From positions 31,870,554 through 31,934,553 of the forward strand of contig NC_092562.1 of NCBI RefSeq assembly GCF_037975245.1: a stretch of 64,000 nt of DNA. Direction: 5' to 3'. Of the stretch, positions 39,570 to 61,214 are shown piece by piece. The stretch's first letter is position 1. Each line of letters starts with the position of its first letter. The notes under the pieces were generated by a model. That model ran no database searches. It was not told the DNA's origin and saw only the letters and a list, made by a program, of their open reading frames with translations. The DNA comes from Apostichopus japonicus. Taxonomy: Eukaryota > Echinodermata > Holothuroidea > Aspidochirotida > Stichopodidae. Made by a program: the position numbers and the translations under genes.

Positions 39570-40535
39570 CTATTCTAAATATTTAGGTGGTTTCTTAACT
39601 CTAACTATTCTTGGACTAGAACATTCTTGTTCCTGACATTCATTACCAGTTGACTCACTTTGACAATTATCAGTATTACTATCTTGATATGGTGTATTTT
39701 CTTCTATGTATTTCTTTGTGACTGGCATTTCGTCTATATTCCACCCTTGTGGAGAACGTACTGTCATTTGAGAGTGAAAATTGTCTACAACCTGAAATGG
39801 TTCTGGGTGGTTTGAAGGTGATAATTTGTTTTGTTTGTCCTGCTTAACAAGAAGTTCGTCACCTGGAACAATTTGGTTCTCTTTAGCATTTCTCTTTAGA
39901 TCACAATAATCTTTAGACTTTTGTTTCATTTCCCTATCTCTATCAGCAACTGTCAAATTCTCAATGTTACCATAAAGTTCTGGCAATCTGGGTCGAATCT
40001 TTCGAATAAACAGAAGTTCGGCCGGACTAACTCCCGTCTTGTACTGTGGGGTGTCGATCGATAGGCAAGAAGAAATTGAATTAACTCAGTTTTCCAATCC
40101 TTCTTTTCTACTTGAGCAATTTTTAATGCCTTTAGGATGGTACTATTCTGCCCTTCTACCTCTCCGTTTGCTTGAGGCCATAGAGGTGTTGTTGTCCTGT
40201 GATTTATGCCACATGCCTCTAAGTAAGAATCATATTCAGCAGAGACAAAATTTGATCCATTGTCTGTTTTTATGGATTCTGGATACCCATCTCTACAGAA
40301 TATGGCTTCAAGTTGTTACCTTAAGAATATCTACTTCAAAGTATCTACTAAAGTAATCAACAATTACAAATAGGTATGACCCATCTGGCAGTGGACCCAT
40401 TAAATCTGCCGCTAGGTGTTGCCAAGGGGAAGAGGGTAGTGGGATTGATTGGACTGGGTCAGGATGTGATGCTAAGCCTACTACCTGACATCCATGACAT
40501 GTCTTGCATTTTAGCTCAATGTCTTTATCAGCGCA
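39570..40535 (-). pseudogene. Ty3/gypsy integrase (broken)
   Basis: Read on the minus strand from 40535 leftward: an H2C2-type zinc-binding segment (CKTCHGCQ), the core with the SDNGSNF motif, the downstream Glu region (PQANGEVEGQN), then the GVSPAELLF and LPELYGN region and a C-terminal domain open for 138 residues to 39570. Frameshifts and a stop break the core. The upstream side is cut by the inserted element 40630-41187. Confidence 0.8.
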
Positions 40536-48249: not shown

Positions 48250-51200
48250 CCAACTAGCTGGAAAGACATTGTTCATCACTGGAGCAAGTAGAGGAATTGG
48301 CCAAGCCATTGCTGAGAGAGCAGCAAGAGATGGAGCCAACATTGTCATCGCAGCCAAGACAGCCACCCCTCACCCTAAACTACCAGGAACCATATACACT
48401 GCGGCTGAAGCAAGTAGGTTTACCCTGTACCCTGTCAATCTGTTTTCTCGTATTACAGCCAGGGAGACAACTGTTATTGTGGTTTGCTTTGACAGTATTT
48501 TGGTCTACCCAATTATCCCCTCCCCCTCCCCCACCCCATCTACACTGTAACCCTCTTATTTTCCCACATACATAGTACTATATTACATTTACTTACAGTA
48601 CCATAAACACATTTCAAGATTAGCATGATGAAAATGTAAATGGTCTTGGACTTCAGCAGCACAACCCTGCCTCCATGACACTACTAACACAACCCTATCT
48701 CCATGGCACCAGTAAACACAACTCAATGACACCAGTCACACAACTCTGTTTCCATAACACCAGTAAAACAATTTTATGTTAACACCAGTAAAACAATTTT
48801 ATGTCCATAACATTGGTAACACAACCCTATGTCCATGACACCAGTAACACACCCCTATCTCTATGGCACCAGTAATACAACACTGTCTCCATGACACCAC
48901 GTACACAACCTTATCTCAATGACACCAGTCACACACCCATCTCCATGGCACCAGTAAAACAATTCTTTGTCCTTGACACCAGTCAAACAATTATATGTTC
49001 ATAACACCAGTAAAACAATTCTATATCCTTGGCACAACACACCCCTGTCTCCATGACAACGGTAATAGAACCATAACTATGTCCGTGACACCATTACAAC
49101 AATTCTATGACCATGACACCAGTAAAACAATTCTATATCTATGACACCATTAAAACAATTCTATGTCCATGACACCATTAAAACAATTATATGTCTGTGA
49201 CACCATTAAAACAATTCTATGTCCATGACACCATTAAAACAATTCTATGTCTGTAACACCATTCAAACAATTCTATGTCCGTGACACCATTCAAACAATT
49301 CTATGCCCGTGACATTAGTAATACAACCCTATGTCCATGACACCATTAAAATAATTCTATGTCTGTGACACCATTAAAGCAATTCTATGTCCATGACACT
49401 ATTAAAACAATTCTATGTCCATGACACCAGTAAAACAATTCTATGTCCATGACACCAGTAAAACAATTCTATGTCCATGACACCAGTAAAACAATTCTAT
49501 GTCTGTGACATTAGTAACACAACCCTATGTCCATGACACCATTTTTGTGCTGATTAACTATACTGTCCATTTCTCTTCTTTACAGTTGAGAAACTTGGCG
49601 GTCAATGTTTGCCTTGTGTTGTTGATATCAGAGATGAAGCCGCTGTGCAGGCTGCTGTTGATGAAACTGTCTCCAAGTTTGGTGGCATTGACATACTTGT
49701 TAATAACGCCAGTGCTATCAATTTGTCAGGTAAAATCCTTAACGTCCACTGATTAATACTTAATTAAAGCTTAGTGGATAGTTGAAGAATTATGCACTAT
49801 TGATCACCGCCAGTAAGGATGGACTTAGTTTGACATATCGAAAATCAATCTTTCATTTGTGATCACATCCTTGCATTTTCACTAAAACATTTGAGCATGA
49901 AGTACAAAATCTCCAATCGTGCAATAAGAAGGCAGGTTTGTCAATTGACTGCCTGAAGTCAGTTTACTCATTTTCAGATTTGAATAGGAGGTGTCTGAAT
50001 TTTGAAGGATTCTTACTAGTCTAGCATTAAAGGTGTTGTATGAACTAACTAATTTACAAAAGTCACTCCTGGCTTTGTTCATTTCATGTTTCCTTTCAGA
50101 TGAAACTCATTGTGAAATCATTGATATATCAGTGTATATATGTATGCTGTATAACAGGTACATATTGATATTACAATAAATATGTCAGTACAATTCAATT
50201 TACAGGTACTGAAGGTTTGGATATGAAGAGATATGATCTCATGCATAGTATCAACACAAGAGGAACCTACTTGTGGTAAGTATTTAGTATCCCTAATATG
50301 GATTACAAGAGGACTAAGTCCTAGGCCCTAGTGAGTTTCATTGTCCCTTATTCTGTATCAGTTAGAGAACACTATAGTTTATATCCTTTCCTGAGTGGTG
50401 TTGATAAAACGAAAGAGCTATTGTTTTCCTATGTCATTCAGTGATAAAAGTATGTCAGAAGAGAAAGATGGCTGGTTCTAATGTTGATTTGAAATTGTTA
50501 TTACCTCACTTCATTTCCTTGACTCGTCTCCTTCATATTAGAATATTAGCAAGAAAAAAGGTCACTGATCCTTTAGAGGTCCTAGATTAATCCATGAATG
50601 CAAAACAATACAAGGCTTTGTAGATATTGTCAGCATGTTTGATTTCAGTATCTTTTTGTCCGTCTTTGATGTAAGGCTTGATAAGTTGCCTGTCAAGTGA
50701 TCCTGTAGAGAAATCCTTGTGTATTGTTAGAAGGGAGAAGAGAAAGTAACTGGTCTAAATAATTTAGAAGTGTCTGGTTCCCACTCCACTGTTCAGCGAC
50801 TATTATTCATTGCAAGAAGGGAGAAGAGAAAGTAACTGGTCTAAATAATTTAGAAGTGTCTGATTCACACTCCACTGTTCAGCGACTATTATTCATTGTT
50901 AGAGGGAGAAGAGAAAGTAACTGGTCTAAATAATTTAGAAGTGTCTGGTTCCCACTCCACCGTTCAGCGACTATTATTCATTGTTAGAAGGGAGAAGAGA
51001 AAGTAACTGGTCTAAATCATTTAGAAGTGTCTGATTCCCACTCCACTGTTTACAGACTAATATTCATTGTAAGCACTATTCAGTATTGGTGTCTATGAGT
51101 GCAACAAGCTGTTTTCTTTAAATATGGACTTCCATGTGCAATTATATCTCACCATATTCATTGAATATCTGTCCTATTGTCTGCCATGTTAATTCTCTCT

Positions 51201-54200
51201 GCAGTTCAAAGTTGTGTATCCCTCACCTGAAGAAGAGTTCCAACCCTCACATACTTAACCTTAGCCCGCCCCTTCTCATGGATGCTAAATGGTTCAAGAA
51301 TCATGTTGGTGAGTGTTAGTCAGATCCTAAAAGTTTCCATCATATTTGGTTGTTTAAGTGTCTGAGTGGTAAACTTGAAGATGCTATAAAGTGAATTAAC
51401 TGTGTGGTAAGGGTATTACAAGTTCATAACAGTGAACCGATGTTGTCTGAGTACATTTTAGGGGTATTGGACCTTTCTTAAGAGGCATTGTTTAAGAGGC
51501 ATTGCATTCGTACATTGCTTGGTACAAGGACTTGCATACATTGTAGTACATTGCAGATGAAAGTTAAATCATTTGGAAGACTCTTAATTACTAGAACAAT
51601 TGCCAGATAATGTTCACAGCCAAATTAGTCCTCACTCTCTCTGCTAATTACTAGTTAAAGTAACCATAAAATGCATTATTTCCATTAAATCGTAGCATTT
51701 CACCAGTATGTAATTATGTATTTGAGGATGTTGTAAATGCATTACCTACATACACAATTTAACAGCAGTGTTTGCAAATGTTTTTTCTATTGGAATTGTC
51801 CGAAATGGTCACATTTCATATTCAAAACTTTATGTCACGGTATGTCAAGGTTAAAATCAATTGACGCTTGTGGAATTCTATTTTGGTTGTCAAAACATTT
51901 TGGACAGTTTAGCCAGTTAGTTTGAAATTGTTTAGTTTATTTGTTATTGGAATTGCGTAGTTTATTTGTTATTTGTTATTTGTTATTGTGTATCAATTGG
52001 TTTTCATTATAATATCTGAATAAGGTAGGGGCAATGGAGAGGTTTTAATTATTAATGCATTTATCACCAGTTATAAGATGCTTATAAAGTATGCAGACCA
52101 TGATATGTATTGTTCTTAACAACAATAGGTGTTGTTGTTTATAACAATGGGATTTGTTATTTATAACAATAGGTTATACCATGGCCAAGATGGGAATGTC
52201 TATGTGTGTCCTTGGTATGGCTGAGGAACTAAAAGATGCAGGCATAGCAGTTAATGCACTCTGGCCTAAGACTGGTGAGTAAAGAAATGATTGGATCATG
52301 TAAGCATTAATTATTGGGAATATTATAACATTATATTATTACATTGTTGGTATGGCTTCGGAACAGAAAGATGCAGGCATAGCAGTTAATGCACTCTGGC
52401 CTAAGACTGGAAAGTTGTCCTGTAAGTATTTACGTTAAACTGTTTTTTTTTATCCCTCCCACAGCAATCTACACAGCTGCAATGGAGATGTTGGGGGGGG
52501 GGGGGGTGGAGGCAGGTCATTTAAACTGTTTTGTTTTACCCCTCCCACAGCAATCTACACAGCTGCAATGTTTGGTTTTATCCCTCCCACAGCAATCTAC
52601 ACAGCTGCAATGGAGATGTTGGGGGGGGGGGGGGGTTGAGGCAGGTCATTTAAACTGTTTTGTTTTATCCCTCCCACAGCAATCTACACAGCTGCAATGG
52701 AGATGTTGGGAGGGGGGTGGGGTGGAGGCAGGTCATTTAAACTGTTTTGTTTAATCCCTCCCACAGCAATCTACACAGCTGCAATGTTTGGTTTTATCCC
52801 TCCCACAGCAATCTACACAGCTGCGATGGAGATGTTGGGGGGGGGGGGGGGTTGAGGCAGGTCATTTAAACTGTTTTGTTTTATCCCTCCCACAGCAATC
52901 TACACAGCTGCAATGGAGATGTTGGGAGGGGGGTGGGGTGGAGGCAGGTCATTTAAACTGTTTTGTTTAATCCCTCCCACAGCAATCTACACAGCTGCAA
53001 TGTTTGGTTTTATCCCTCCCACAGCAATCTACACAGCTGCAATGGAGATGTTGGGAGGGGGGTGGGGTGGAGGCAGGTCATTTAAACTGTTTTGTTTAAT
53101 CCCTCCCACAGCAATCTACACAGCTGCAATGTTTGGTTTTATCCCTCCCACAGCAATCTACACAGCTGCGATGGAGATGTTGGGGGGAGGCGGAGAAATC
53201 AAGAAGAGTTGTAGGACTGCTGATATCTGTTCAGACTCTGCTTATGCAATCATCACCAAAAATAGCAGATCTTTCACTGGAAATTTCTGTGTCGATGAAG
53301 ACATTCTCAGAAAGGAAGGTGTAACTGACTTTACCAAATATGCATGTGAACCAGGTATGAGAGTCATAACTTTCAACAATCTTTGCATCTGACACCAAGA
53401 CCCTTTCATCTCAAACCTATGACAACCACTCATTTATATGTTTGGCCAGTTTTTTTAATTACATTGTAATATCCTAGCTATGGTATTTTAACTGGTCGAA
53501 TGCTTTGTTATTCGAAATCTTTTGAATACATGTTGACCTCAATCACTTTATGGACAAAGTAATAGGGCCAACAATACAATCTGTCCAATGTGGAATAGTA
53601 CAGGCATGTAATTGTTTCATACTAGATACTAGATTGTCAGTCAAGACAAATATCCATTTTTTCATCGTATCTTGCTTCTTTTCATCTTAACTCTGTTTCT
53701 TCCTTTCCGTTAGGTCATCCATTACAGCCAGACTTCTTTCTAGATGTTGAGCCCAATGATCCGACATTCCAGGGAGATGTTTCTCAGATCTACAATGAAT
53801 CACTAAAACAAGGAGTTGAATCTGTTGATGGAGGTCAAGTGGCTGGCATGTTTGAGCTCATCAAGGGTCAACTCAATGAAAAAATCGTCCAAACTACAGG
53901 CGCTGTTTTCCAGTTTGAGCTTTCAGGTAATTAATGTCTTTAATTACTGGTGGATAAATTTAAGGTTCCTAAACCTGTTTATTTTGGGTATTTTGTTCTA
54001 TACATTACAATTGCCAGTTAATCAATTAGTTTAAGTCACATATGAAGGCGAGCAAGCATTTTAAGAGGTATGTGACATATATTTTGAGTTCTAACTTCAA
54101 GTGAGAAGTAATTATCTTTCATGTGAAGATGCTTATTGTTCTCCAGTTTTATATCTTGCTTGCTGACATGCCTGCTTCATCCTTAATCTCATTTGTATGA

Positions 54201-54530
54201 TTGTGTTTGGATGCCAAAACCAGGAAACTCTCTGATATAAGAGAGTAACATTTTCCACTTTTACCTTAATGCTTCTCTTTATTTACAGGTAGTGAATCAG
54301 GGACATGGCACCTGGACCTAAAGTCAGGAGTTGGGGCTGCTGGAACCGGGGCCAGTCAAGGAGCAGCAGATGTGGTATTCAAGATGGACAGCAAAGATTT
54401 CATCAAAATGTTCAAGGGAGAGCTAAAAGCAACCTCTGCATTTATGACAGGGAAACTGAAGATCAAGGGAGATATTGGGAAAGCAATGAAACTGGAAAAA
54501 TTAATGGGCAATGTCAAATCCAAAATGTAA
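48250..54530 (+). CDS. HSDL2: Hydroxysteroid dehydrogenase-like protein 2 (SDR + SCP2), first exon missing
   Basis: Exons: 48250-48413, 49586-49729, 50206-50275, 51205-51308, 52173-52274, 53154-53354, 53714-53926, 54289-54530. All junctions are GT-AG and in phase, giving about 413 residues against about 418 in vertebrates. The SDR part shows the NAD(P)-binding TGASRGIG, then NNAS, a Ser in LNLSPP and the YTMAK (YxxxK) catalytic pair. The last two exons encode an SCP2 lipid-binding domain, and the protein ends SKM, a peroxisomal PTS1-like tripeptide. Family knowledge: a peroxisomal or mitochondrial SDR of uncertain substrate linked to lipid metabolism. The ATG at 48233 overlaps the CCCTACAG acceptor and is not the start; the true first exon lies upstream. 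The acceptor of the exon at 53154 is the last of 11 tandem copies, and the preceding exon has a degenerate duplicate at 52347. Identity is confident. Confidence 0.93.
48650..49540. repeat. ~28-bp minisatellite in HSDL2
   Basis: About 30 copies of CCATGACACCAGTAAAACAA plus TTCTATGT. The left half is degenerate and the right half is more homogeneous. The array stops about 45 bases before the exon acceptor at 49585. Confidence 0.88.
50731..51070. repeat. 86-bp tandem repeat, four copies, HSDL2 intron
   Basis: Units start GGGAGAAGAGAAAGTAACTG at 50733, 50819, 50904 and 50990. Each includes TTAGAAGTGTCTGATTCCCA-type sequence and CAGCGACTATTATTCATTG. A fragment recurs near 54665. Confidence 0.88.
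52347..52410 (+). repeat. Degenerate duplicate of the preceding HSDL2 exon end
   Basis: It matches 52213-52276 over 64 bases with only a few changes (GGTATGGCT...GGCCTAAGACTGG). The splice donor ACTG|GTGAGT has become ACTGGAAAG, so the copy lacks a donor. Confidence 0.85.
52450..53160. repeat. Tandem array of 11 HSDL2 splice acceptors with exon start
   Basis: The block ATCCCTCCCACAG|CAATC followed by TACACAGCTGCAATGGAGAT is repeated, with predicted exon starts at 52465, 52551, 52593, 52680, 52767, 52809, 52896, 52983, 53025, 53112 and 53154. Spacing is 42 bases (a short unit) or 86-88 bases (a long unit with a poly-G run and GGCAGGTCATTTAAACTG). Only the last copy continues into the full exon. 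From 52896 on, spacings are 87, 42, 87 and 42, all multiples of three, and the frame stays open. Confidence 0.93.
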
Positions 54531-59078: not shown

Positions 59079-59989
59079 CAATGGCAATGAAATATATATT
59101 CATTTAGGAGTAAATTGTCTGTACTTTTCATTAGTGATACAAGCTAACGTATTTCAGTCAATGGTTGAAAGGTTCAAACAGGTCAAATATTTGTCCTAAT
59201 TCAAGTAGAGCAACAATTTCTGCAGGAATCCAATTAGTTCATAACGATGCCCCAGCATCTCAAGCAATTTTATTGTACCGTTTATTGTGTGATAGTTGAT
59301 TCTCTGGTATGTGAATCCAACATGTGAATGCATTGGTGAGTTCTTTGCAAAATATTGATGCTGTATGCCAACGTCAGTACATAAACACAATTGAGCTTTG
59401 ACCTCAAGGAGAAAGATGCTGATGAAACATTCTCTGAGATATAAATACTTTTGCTTCCCTTACCAACTCTTGATACTCACGTGACGTAATATCATCATGA
59501 TCATACGGTTACAGATGTCTCCGATGCGAGGGAAATGTGGTTGAGAATGGATCAAATTGTTTGATTCCGTGTCCAGGCTCTATCTTGAACGCAGGCGCAA
59601 CCACGTGTACCTCTGGGGTGGGGGAGGGGGTAGCTATAGAACATCCCCTTCCCACTGGCAGACAAAAATATTACAAGAATTCTACTAGTGTGCAGTAAGT
59701 CAATGTATAACATGCGTTACAACCTGGACAGTTGTAAATATAGCACTATTTTGCATCGAAGCACCCCCTCCGCCGAATACCAAAATGTCTCAAAGGAGAG
59801 ATACACACTTACACCTCTCCCTGGAAAACTAACAACATATCCCATCACCACTCCAAACACTAGTGGTTGCACCGCTGATCTTGGGTGACTTCTTAAAATA
59901 TGTCCTTCGAGGAGAACGAATTTCTGCCTGGAACTGATATCATGAATCAAAGGTTTTCATTTCCTTGTTCATTCATAGTATTCTGTACC
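59079..59989. other. Intergenic, no gene recognised
   Basis: No conserved coding frame or repeat apart from a short G-rich patch at 59615-59632. Confidence 0.4.
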
Positions 59990-60890
59990 ATTGTCTCCTT
60001 AGAGGGGAGTGAAGGGTAGACCATGGTCTCCTTAGAGCGGAGTGAAGGGTAGACCATGGTCTCCTTAGAGCGGAGTGAAGGGTAGACCATGGTCTCCTTA
60101 GAGCGGAGTGAAGGGTAGACCATGGTCTCCTTAGAGCGGAGTGAAGGGTAGACCATGGTCTCCTTGGAGGCCTGTGAAGGGTAGACCATGGTCTCCTTGG
60201 AGTGGAGTGAAGGGTAGACCATGGTCTCCTTGGAGGGGAGTGAAGGGTAGACCATGGTCTCCTTGGAGGGGAGTGAAGGGTAGACCATGGTCTCCTTGGA
60301 GGGGAGTGAAGGGTAGACCATGGTCTCCTTGGAGGGGAGTGAAGGGTAGACCATGGTCTCCTTGGAGGGGAGTGAAGGGTAGACCATGGTCTACTGGGAG
60401 GGGAGTGAAGTGTAGACCATGGTCTCCTTGGAGGGGAGTGAAGGGCAGTCCATGGTCTCCTTGGAGGGGAGTGAAGGGTAGACCATGGTCTCCTTGGAGG
60501 GGAGTGAAGGGTAGACCATGGTCTCCTTGGAGAGGAGTGGAGTGTAGACCATGGTCTCCTTGGAGGGGAGTGAAGGGTAGACAATGGTCTCCTTGGAGGG
60601 GAGTGAAGGGTAGACCATGGTCTCCTTGGAGGGAAGTGAAGGGTAGTACATGGTCGCCTTGGAGGGGAATGAAGGGCAGTCCATGGTCTCCTTGGAGGGG
60701 AGTGAAGGGCAGTCCATGGTCTCCTTGGAGAGGAGTGAAGGGTAGACCATGGTCTCCTTGGAGGGGAGTGAACGGTAGACCATGGTCTCCTTGGAGGGGA
60801 GTGGAGTGTAGACCATGGTCTCCTTGGAGGGGAGTGAAGGGTAGACCATGGTCTCCTTGGAGGGGAGTGAAGGGTAGACCATGGACTCTC
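59990..60890. repeat. 33-bp minisatellite, about 27 copies
   Basis: The unit is GTAGACCATGGTCTCCTTGG followed by AGGGGAGTGAAGG. Because 33 is a multiple of three, long open frames appear on both strands (a 288-residue frame from 60141 on plus, with 163- and 203-residue frames on minus). The first five units carry TTAGAG where later ones have TTGGAG, which puts a stop in the plus frame. ACCATGGT gives each unit a palindromic core. Confidence 0.92.
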
Positions 60891-61214
60891 TTGGAGAGGG
60901 GAGAAGTTGTAGATTCTCTTTTAATTGTAGGAAGAGAAGGGGGAGGGGAGATTATCTATCGGATTAGGTGTAAGGTAAGTATTTCTAATTCCAATGTTTC
61001 TCGGTAATGTTGCAACGAATTGAGTTGCTCTAGGCAATTCAAAATGACAAATAGGTTCAGCAGTTGATTCTTAATCAATTCATATACTTGATAAACAGAA
61101 GATAAACTGAAACAAAAGAGGATTACAGTGAAACCGAAATGATAGACATATTGTATGTCGCTTTCATTGATACTTAATGATATTAACTACATTGTCTCGC
61201 AAAAAGTATTTGCA
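60891..61214. other. Intergenic, no gene recognised
   Basis: AT-rich sequence between the minisatellite and the LINE. Nothing identified. Confidence 0.4.

Follow-up and report, generated by a model that had tools for sequence, protein, structure and literature searches.

In human ABCA7, intron 18 carries a VNTR (25-bp unit) that begins at the exon 18 donor, and transcripts keeping one 25-bp unit are reported (PMC5954066). Among the systems compared here, this VNTR is the closest precedent for the locus described here, an array in the HSDL2 gene of the sea cucumber Apostichopus japonicus, as in both the minisatellite unit includes a canonical coding-exon splice site. The two nevertheless differ. 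In ABCA7 the donor is repeated by a unit that is out of frame, whereas in HSDL2 the acceptor and part of the exon are repeated with in-frame periods. Moreover, length variation and transcripts have been measured in humans for ABCA7, while the HSDL2 array is known from the sequence of one assembly. By analogy, the HSDL2 array may be viewed as an ABCA7-type phenomenon at the opposite intron end, the repetition of an acceptor with part of its exon and the in-frame periods being what sets it apart.

Other systems are more distant. In EBNA-LP of Epstein-Barr virus, entire exons, flanked by their own acceptor and donor, are contained in the repeat units. EBNA-LP resembles the HSDL2 array in that protein length can follow repeat copy number via splicing, but its units are whole exons whereas those of HSDL2 hold only a weak GTCATT donor-like site. 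This site (GGCAG/GTCATT, the slash marking the exon/intron boundary) lies in the long units, 35 nt ahead of the next acceptor, and would delimit a mini-exon of 52 nt. The use of one such mini-exon per long unit was rejected, GTCATT being a poor donor, the gap to the next acceptor being so short, and the mini-exon being out of frame. Likewise, the array is not a set of tandemly duplicated exons of the mutually exclusive type, in which each copy is a whole exon with its acceptor and donor. Finally, adjacent acceptors can yield in-frame protein length variants at NAGNAG sites (PMC3250501). Those acceptors are 3 nt apart, whereas the HSDL2 acceptors are 42, 86 or 87 nt apart in an array of 11, and two acceptor AGs 3 nt apart do not occur among them. 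Among the matches listed by searches of the open-licence literature on repeated or duplicated acceptors and on HSDL2 in sea cucumbers, we recognised neither the HSDL2 array nor another acceptor multiplied in this way.

The window, i.e., the whole 64-kb stretch of DNA that was analysed, carries on its forward strand an HSDL2 gene of which eight coding exons were placed (48250..54530; Table 1). The model lacks the upstream first coding exon, which was not located. Every junction is GT-AG, and the spliced frame is open across 412 residues. The assignment to HSDL2 made in an earlier note on this DNA holds: of the solved structures, the one closest to the spliced protein is HSDL2 3kvo (E 7.3e-117), and Pfam finds adh_short followed by SCP2, i.e., the SDR domain and then the SCP2 domain expected of HSDL2. 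A protein search of the genome (671,581,487 bases over 35 contigs, including a mitochondrial one) returned 11 matches, eight of which are the exons of this gene. The other three are just 25-33% identical, on which grounds a duplicate of the gene was rejected, and HSDL2 appears from these matches to be single-copy. The COX1 gene on contig C35 reads better, as judged by eye, with NCBI table 9 (AAA=Asn, ATA=Ile), a code used by echinoderms, than with table 5, these being the two tables compared.

Table 1. Features of the HSDL2 locus (positions in the window)
Feature	Position	Strand	Basis or remark
HSDL2 coding exons	48250-48413, 49586-49729, 50206-50275, 51205-51308, 52173-52274, 53154-53354, 53714-53926, 54289-54530	+	GT-AG junctions, open frame
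22-bp repeat, 3.3 copies, doubling the acceptor of the previous HSDL2 exon	52103..52174	+	TRF, direct repeats
Exon before the array; donor after 52274	52173..52274	+	
Partial duplicate of the 3' end of the preceding exon (52212-52275), in the intron that holds the array	52347..52410	+	60/64 bases identical
Minisatellite, 42- and 87-nt units, 129-/216-nt higher-order periods, 11 acceptor/exon-start copies	52435..53173	+	TRF, direct repeats, unit comparison
Units 1-6 (acceptors 52465, 52551, 52593, 52680, 52767, 52809), all giving a premature stop	52465..52895	+	Predicted splicing from 52274
Units 7-10 (acceptors 52896, 52983, 53025, 53112), in frame and stop-free	52896..53153	+	+86, +57, +43, +14 residues
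Complete exon, beginning at acceptor copy 11	53154..53354	+	

Across the boundary between exon 53154-53354 and the intron ahead of it lies a minisatellite, with tandem units of tens of bases, in which the 3' splice site and the first exon bases (CCACAG/CAATCTACACAGCTGC) occur in 11 exact copies. Their first exon bases are 52465, 52551, 52593, 52680, 52767, 52809, 52896, 52983, 53025, 53112 and 53154, with successive spacings of 86, 42, 87, 87, 42, 87, 87, 42, 87 and 42 nt. TRF gives periods of 42/87/129/216, and a direct-repeat search returned the same 11 copies. Every copy (11/11) contains the coding exon's canonical splice site, and, as the earlier note had it, only the last one continues into the complete exon, with GT-AG junctions and an open frame. 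The stretch from -11 to +16, which comprises 11 bases of the intron and 16 of the exon, is invariant in all 11 copies, one of the next four exon bases is variable among them, and the exon bases common to copies number 20-31. The array is plainly a repeat beyond chance.

In silico splicing from the donor after 52274 divides the copies into two groups. Joined to copies 7-11, the frame stays open and the protein gains 86, 57, 43, 14 or 0 residues, just as had been claimed for these five stop-free acceptors spaced 87, 42, 87 and 42 nt apart; the two remaining frames of units 7-10 hold two stops each. Joined to any of copies 1-6 (6/6), the frame reaches a stop at residue 209-290 of the readable part of the protein, in every case over 50 nt ahead of the last junction. 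The failure of the upstream copies had been ascribed to changes in poly-G length. This is correct for unit 1, which at 86 nt is one base short and is the sole unit with such a change. It does not apply to the TGA of units 3 and 6 (52593 and 52809), which at 87 nt match the open units in length and in which the stop results from a substitution, GGTTGAGGC replacing GGTGGAGGC, with T where the open units carry G. The extra residues would enter at T/A within WPKT/AIYTAAM. The alignment to 3kvo runs about 80 residues past this point, so that the insertion falls within the SDR portion rather than at its last helix, and the place given in the earlier note, between the SDR core and the C-terminal helix, is imprecise.

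Eleven 3' splice sites that share one core within a single intron, and that are set apart solely by their upstream context and by distance, constitute a natural experiment on acceptor choice. Three rules can be confronted with it: use of the strongest acceptor or the one nearest to the donor, use of the one nearest to the next donor (exon definition), and use of the first AG past the branch point. Depending on the rule, the product would be a frame-shifted exon of 890 nt, the normal exon of 201 nt, or in-frame insertions, and sea cucumber RNA reads could therefore decide between them. First, copy 1 has TTTAC at -32 and 17/20 pyrimidines, the highest count of the 11, and it alone has a yTnAy motif beyond -12. 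Copies 2-11 have 15-16 pyrimidines and show yTnAy only at -12, with none between -13 and -50, while all seven other HSDL2 acceptors have one at -16 or further. Judged on these motifs, the frame-shifted copy 1 would be the best acceptor, as the only one with a branch-point-like motif at the usual distance. Acceptor strength alone would thus predict the 890-nt exon, at odds with an intact, conserved gene. Second, exon definition should favour copy 11 and its 201-nt exon, considering that the other internal exons of HSDL2 measure 70-213 nt and its other introns 359-1172 nt. Third, scanning for the first AG past the branch point skips AGs nearer than 12-15 nt (PMC1431707). Such scanning would be expected to favour the upstream member of each pair, giving insertions such as +14 residues. 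TTTAAAC lies about 25-29 nt ahead of 53112, where the AG-free stretch is 35 nt, vs. 30 nt for 53154; from these two features a preference for 53112 over 53154 may be weakly expected. A branch point shared by the two and favouring 53112 is not borne out by the yTnAy scan, in which both are without a motif beyond -12.

The units themselves are near-identical. All four 42-nt units are identical, as are the 87-nt units 4, 7 and 9, while units 3 and 6 are one base apart, and the higher-order copies of 216 nt match the reference to 98% and 93%. This near-identity points to a young minisatellite. None of the five variable sites among the five 87-nt units falls inside the acceptor core, a number too small to mean anything, and selection on the core was dropped as an explanation. 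G-quadruplexes are a likely aid to repeat instability; when they are allowed, a folding program places one in each of the six long units and another within the true exon, in its first 60 nt. Spread of the array DNA by a mobile element can be set aside, as all genome matches (3/3 and 7/7, in a search that skips very common words) are at the HSDL2 locus.

We favour, with a probability of about 65%, the reading that the array is a young, G-rich minisatellite grown by accident over the constitutive acceptor of HSDL2, taken jointly with leaky or decoy use of its acceptors. A local tandem duplication across the intron/exon boundary would have started the minisatellite, which would then have expanded through slippage or unequal exchange. 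The old intron end would have stayed with the first copy and the whole exon with the last, leaving the intermediate copies as hitch-hiking acceptors of an array that probably did not originate as a regulatory device. The normal protein would be made from acceptor 53154, with some leaky use of neighbouring acceptors, e.g., 53112 (+14 residues). Copies 1-6, if used, would yield mRNA open to nonsense-mediated decay, for which reason the array could be neutral or mildly harmful, and its copy number probably differs among animals. The intact, apparently single-copy HSDL2 suggests that enough normal product is made. What is at play would be a minisatellite growing through the constitutive acceptor of a conserved gene.

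The premature stops also lend themselves to a regulatory interpretation, in which copies 1-6 would act as poison acceptors that commit transcripts to nonsense-mediated decay, thereby setting how much HSDL2 is made. All six upstream copies produce such stops, and copy 1 is the strongest-looking acceptor of the array; nevertheless, stops of this kind would gather in any untranslated repeat, and we hold this control of output to be unlikely. The strength of the frame-shifted copy 1 and the youth of the array would also suit a damaged allele, the array largely breaking HSDL2 in this animal or population while other alleles carry fewer copies. Given that the rest of HSDL2 is intact, such damage is likewise unlikely. 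Upstream poison sites and the last five productive acceptors might also be combined in a splicing rheostat that depends on copy number, the polymorphic minisatellite setting both enzyme dose and loop length, an arrangement that we regard as quite unlikely.

It is improbable that the array is a length-variable splicing cassette, i.e., that copies 7-11 serve by design to give HSDL2 with 0, 14, 43, 57 or 86 residues more after WPKT. Copies 7-11 are stop-free and in frame, and both periods are divisible by three, which together amount to a mild hint of constraint. However, when the 129-nt unit was shuffled (4000 shuffles), a fixed frame was stop-free in a fraction of 0.25 and some frame in 0.63, two periods both divisible by three are expected by chance in about 1 case in 9, and 10 of 36 arrays (genome sample plus window, HSDL2 array included) have periods divisible by three. 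Openness is therefore near chance, and the in-frame property is weak evidence. In addition, the units are too alike to reveal selection, the added residues would fall within the SDR portion, a stop or a frameshift is present in three of the six long units, and minisatellites are common in the genome. Of the two roles that the earlier note offered, decoy acceptors remain plausible because copies 1-6 all lead to premature stops, whereas the length cassette is without positive evidence.

Poly-G runs and tandem repeats are usual trouble spots of assemblies, and a one-base poly-G error, which would bear on the 86-nt unit, is possible. That an assembly artefact explains the array is nonetheless hardly credible, as it is shorter than 750 bp and would be spanned by single HiFi reads, which average 14,729 bp at 64-fold coverage in the A. 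japonicus HiFi assembly (PMC10344927).

Minisatellites are common in the genome from which the window comes: 22 arrays were found in 190 kb (19 sampled genome stretches) and 14 in the 64-kb window. In 3 of 36 arrays, that of HSDL2 included, YAG is preceded by a pyrimidine-rich stretch (14/17 or more), both strands of the unit being considered. When the whole genome was searched for pairs of close acceptor-like words, 13 sequence matches were returned, four in the HSDL2 array and nine elsewhere; the reversed pattern gave five.

Local duplication is seen elsewhere in the gene. The 22-bp repeat at the previous exon supplies a further upstream acceptor copy, with its first base at 52129, 44 nt upstream and out of frame. 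In the partial copy of the end of that exon, the donor is replaced by GAAAGT, and the four changes with respect to 52212-52275 are bunched within about 10 bases. Its use as an alternative exon was rejected, as no good acceptor was seen ahead of it by eye and its donor is GAAAGT, and so was its inclusion by read-through of the first donor, which meets TAA at once. Two further minisatellites lie in HSDL2 introns, at 48672-49541 (28 bp x 31) and 50723-51073 (86 bp x 4).

Elsewhere in the window, a 33-bp x 27.5 array (59976-60920) stays open over long frames on each of the two strands (315 and 290 residues), which a period divisible by three would lead one to expect. Pfam searches with six other ORFs of the window gave nothing for five and one integrase match below the curated cut-off, an integrase-core-like fragment on the reverse strand at 39956-40315 (PF00665, E 1e-6). 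About 0.63 Mb separates the window itself (C2:31870554-31934553) from the end of its contig, which measures 32.56 Mb. Among the sampled stretches, one of 10 kb (L039:1-10000) consists entirely of a 22-bp satellite, in about 455 copies. Finally, a small contig (C29; stretches L042 and L043) carries COX1 pieces about 15 kb apart, which may represent either tandem mitochondrial copies left unplaced or an insertion in the nuclear genome.
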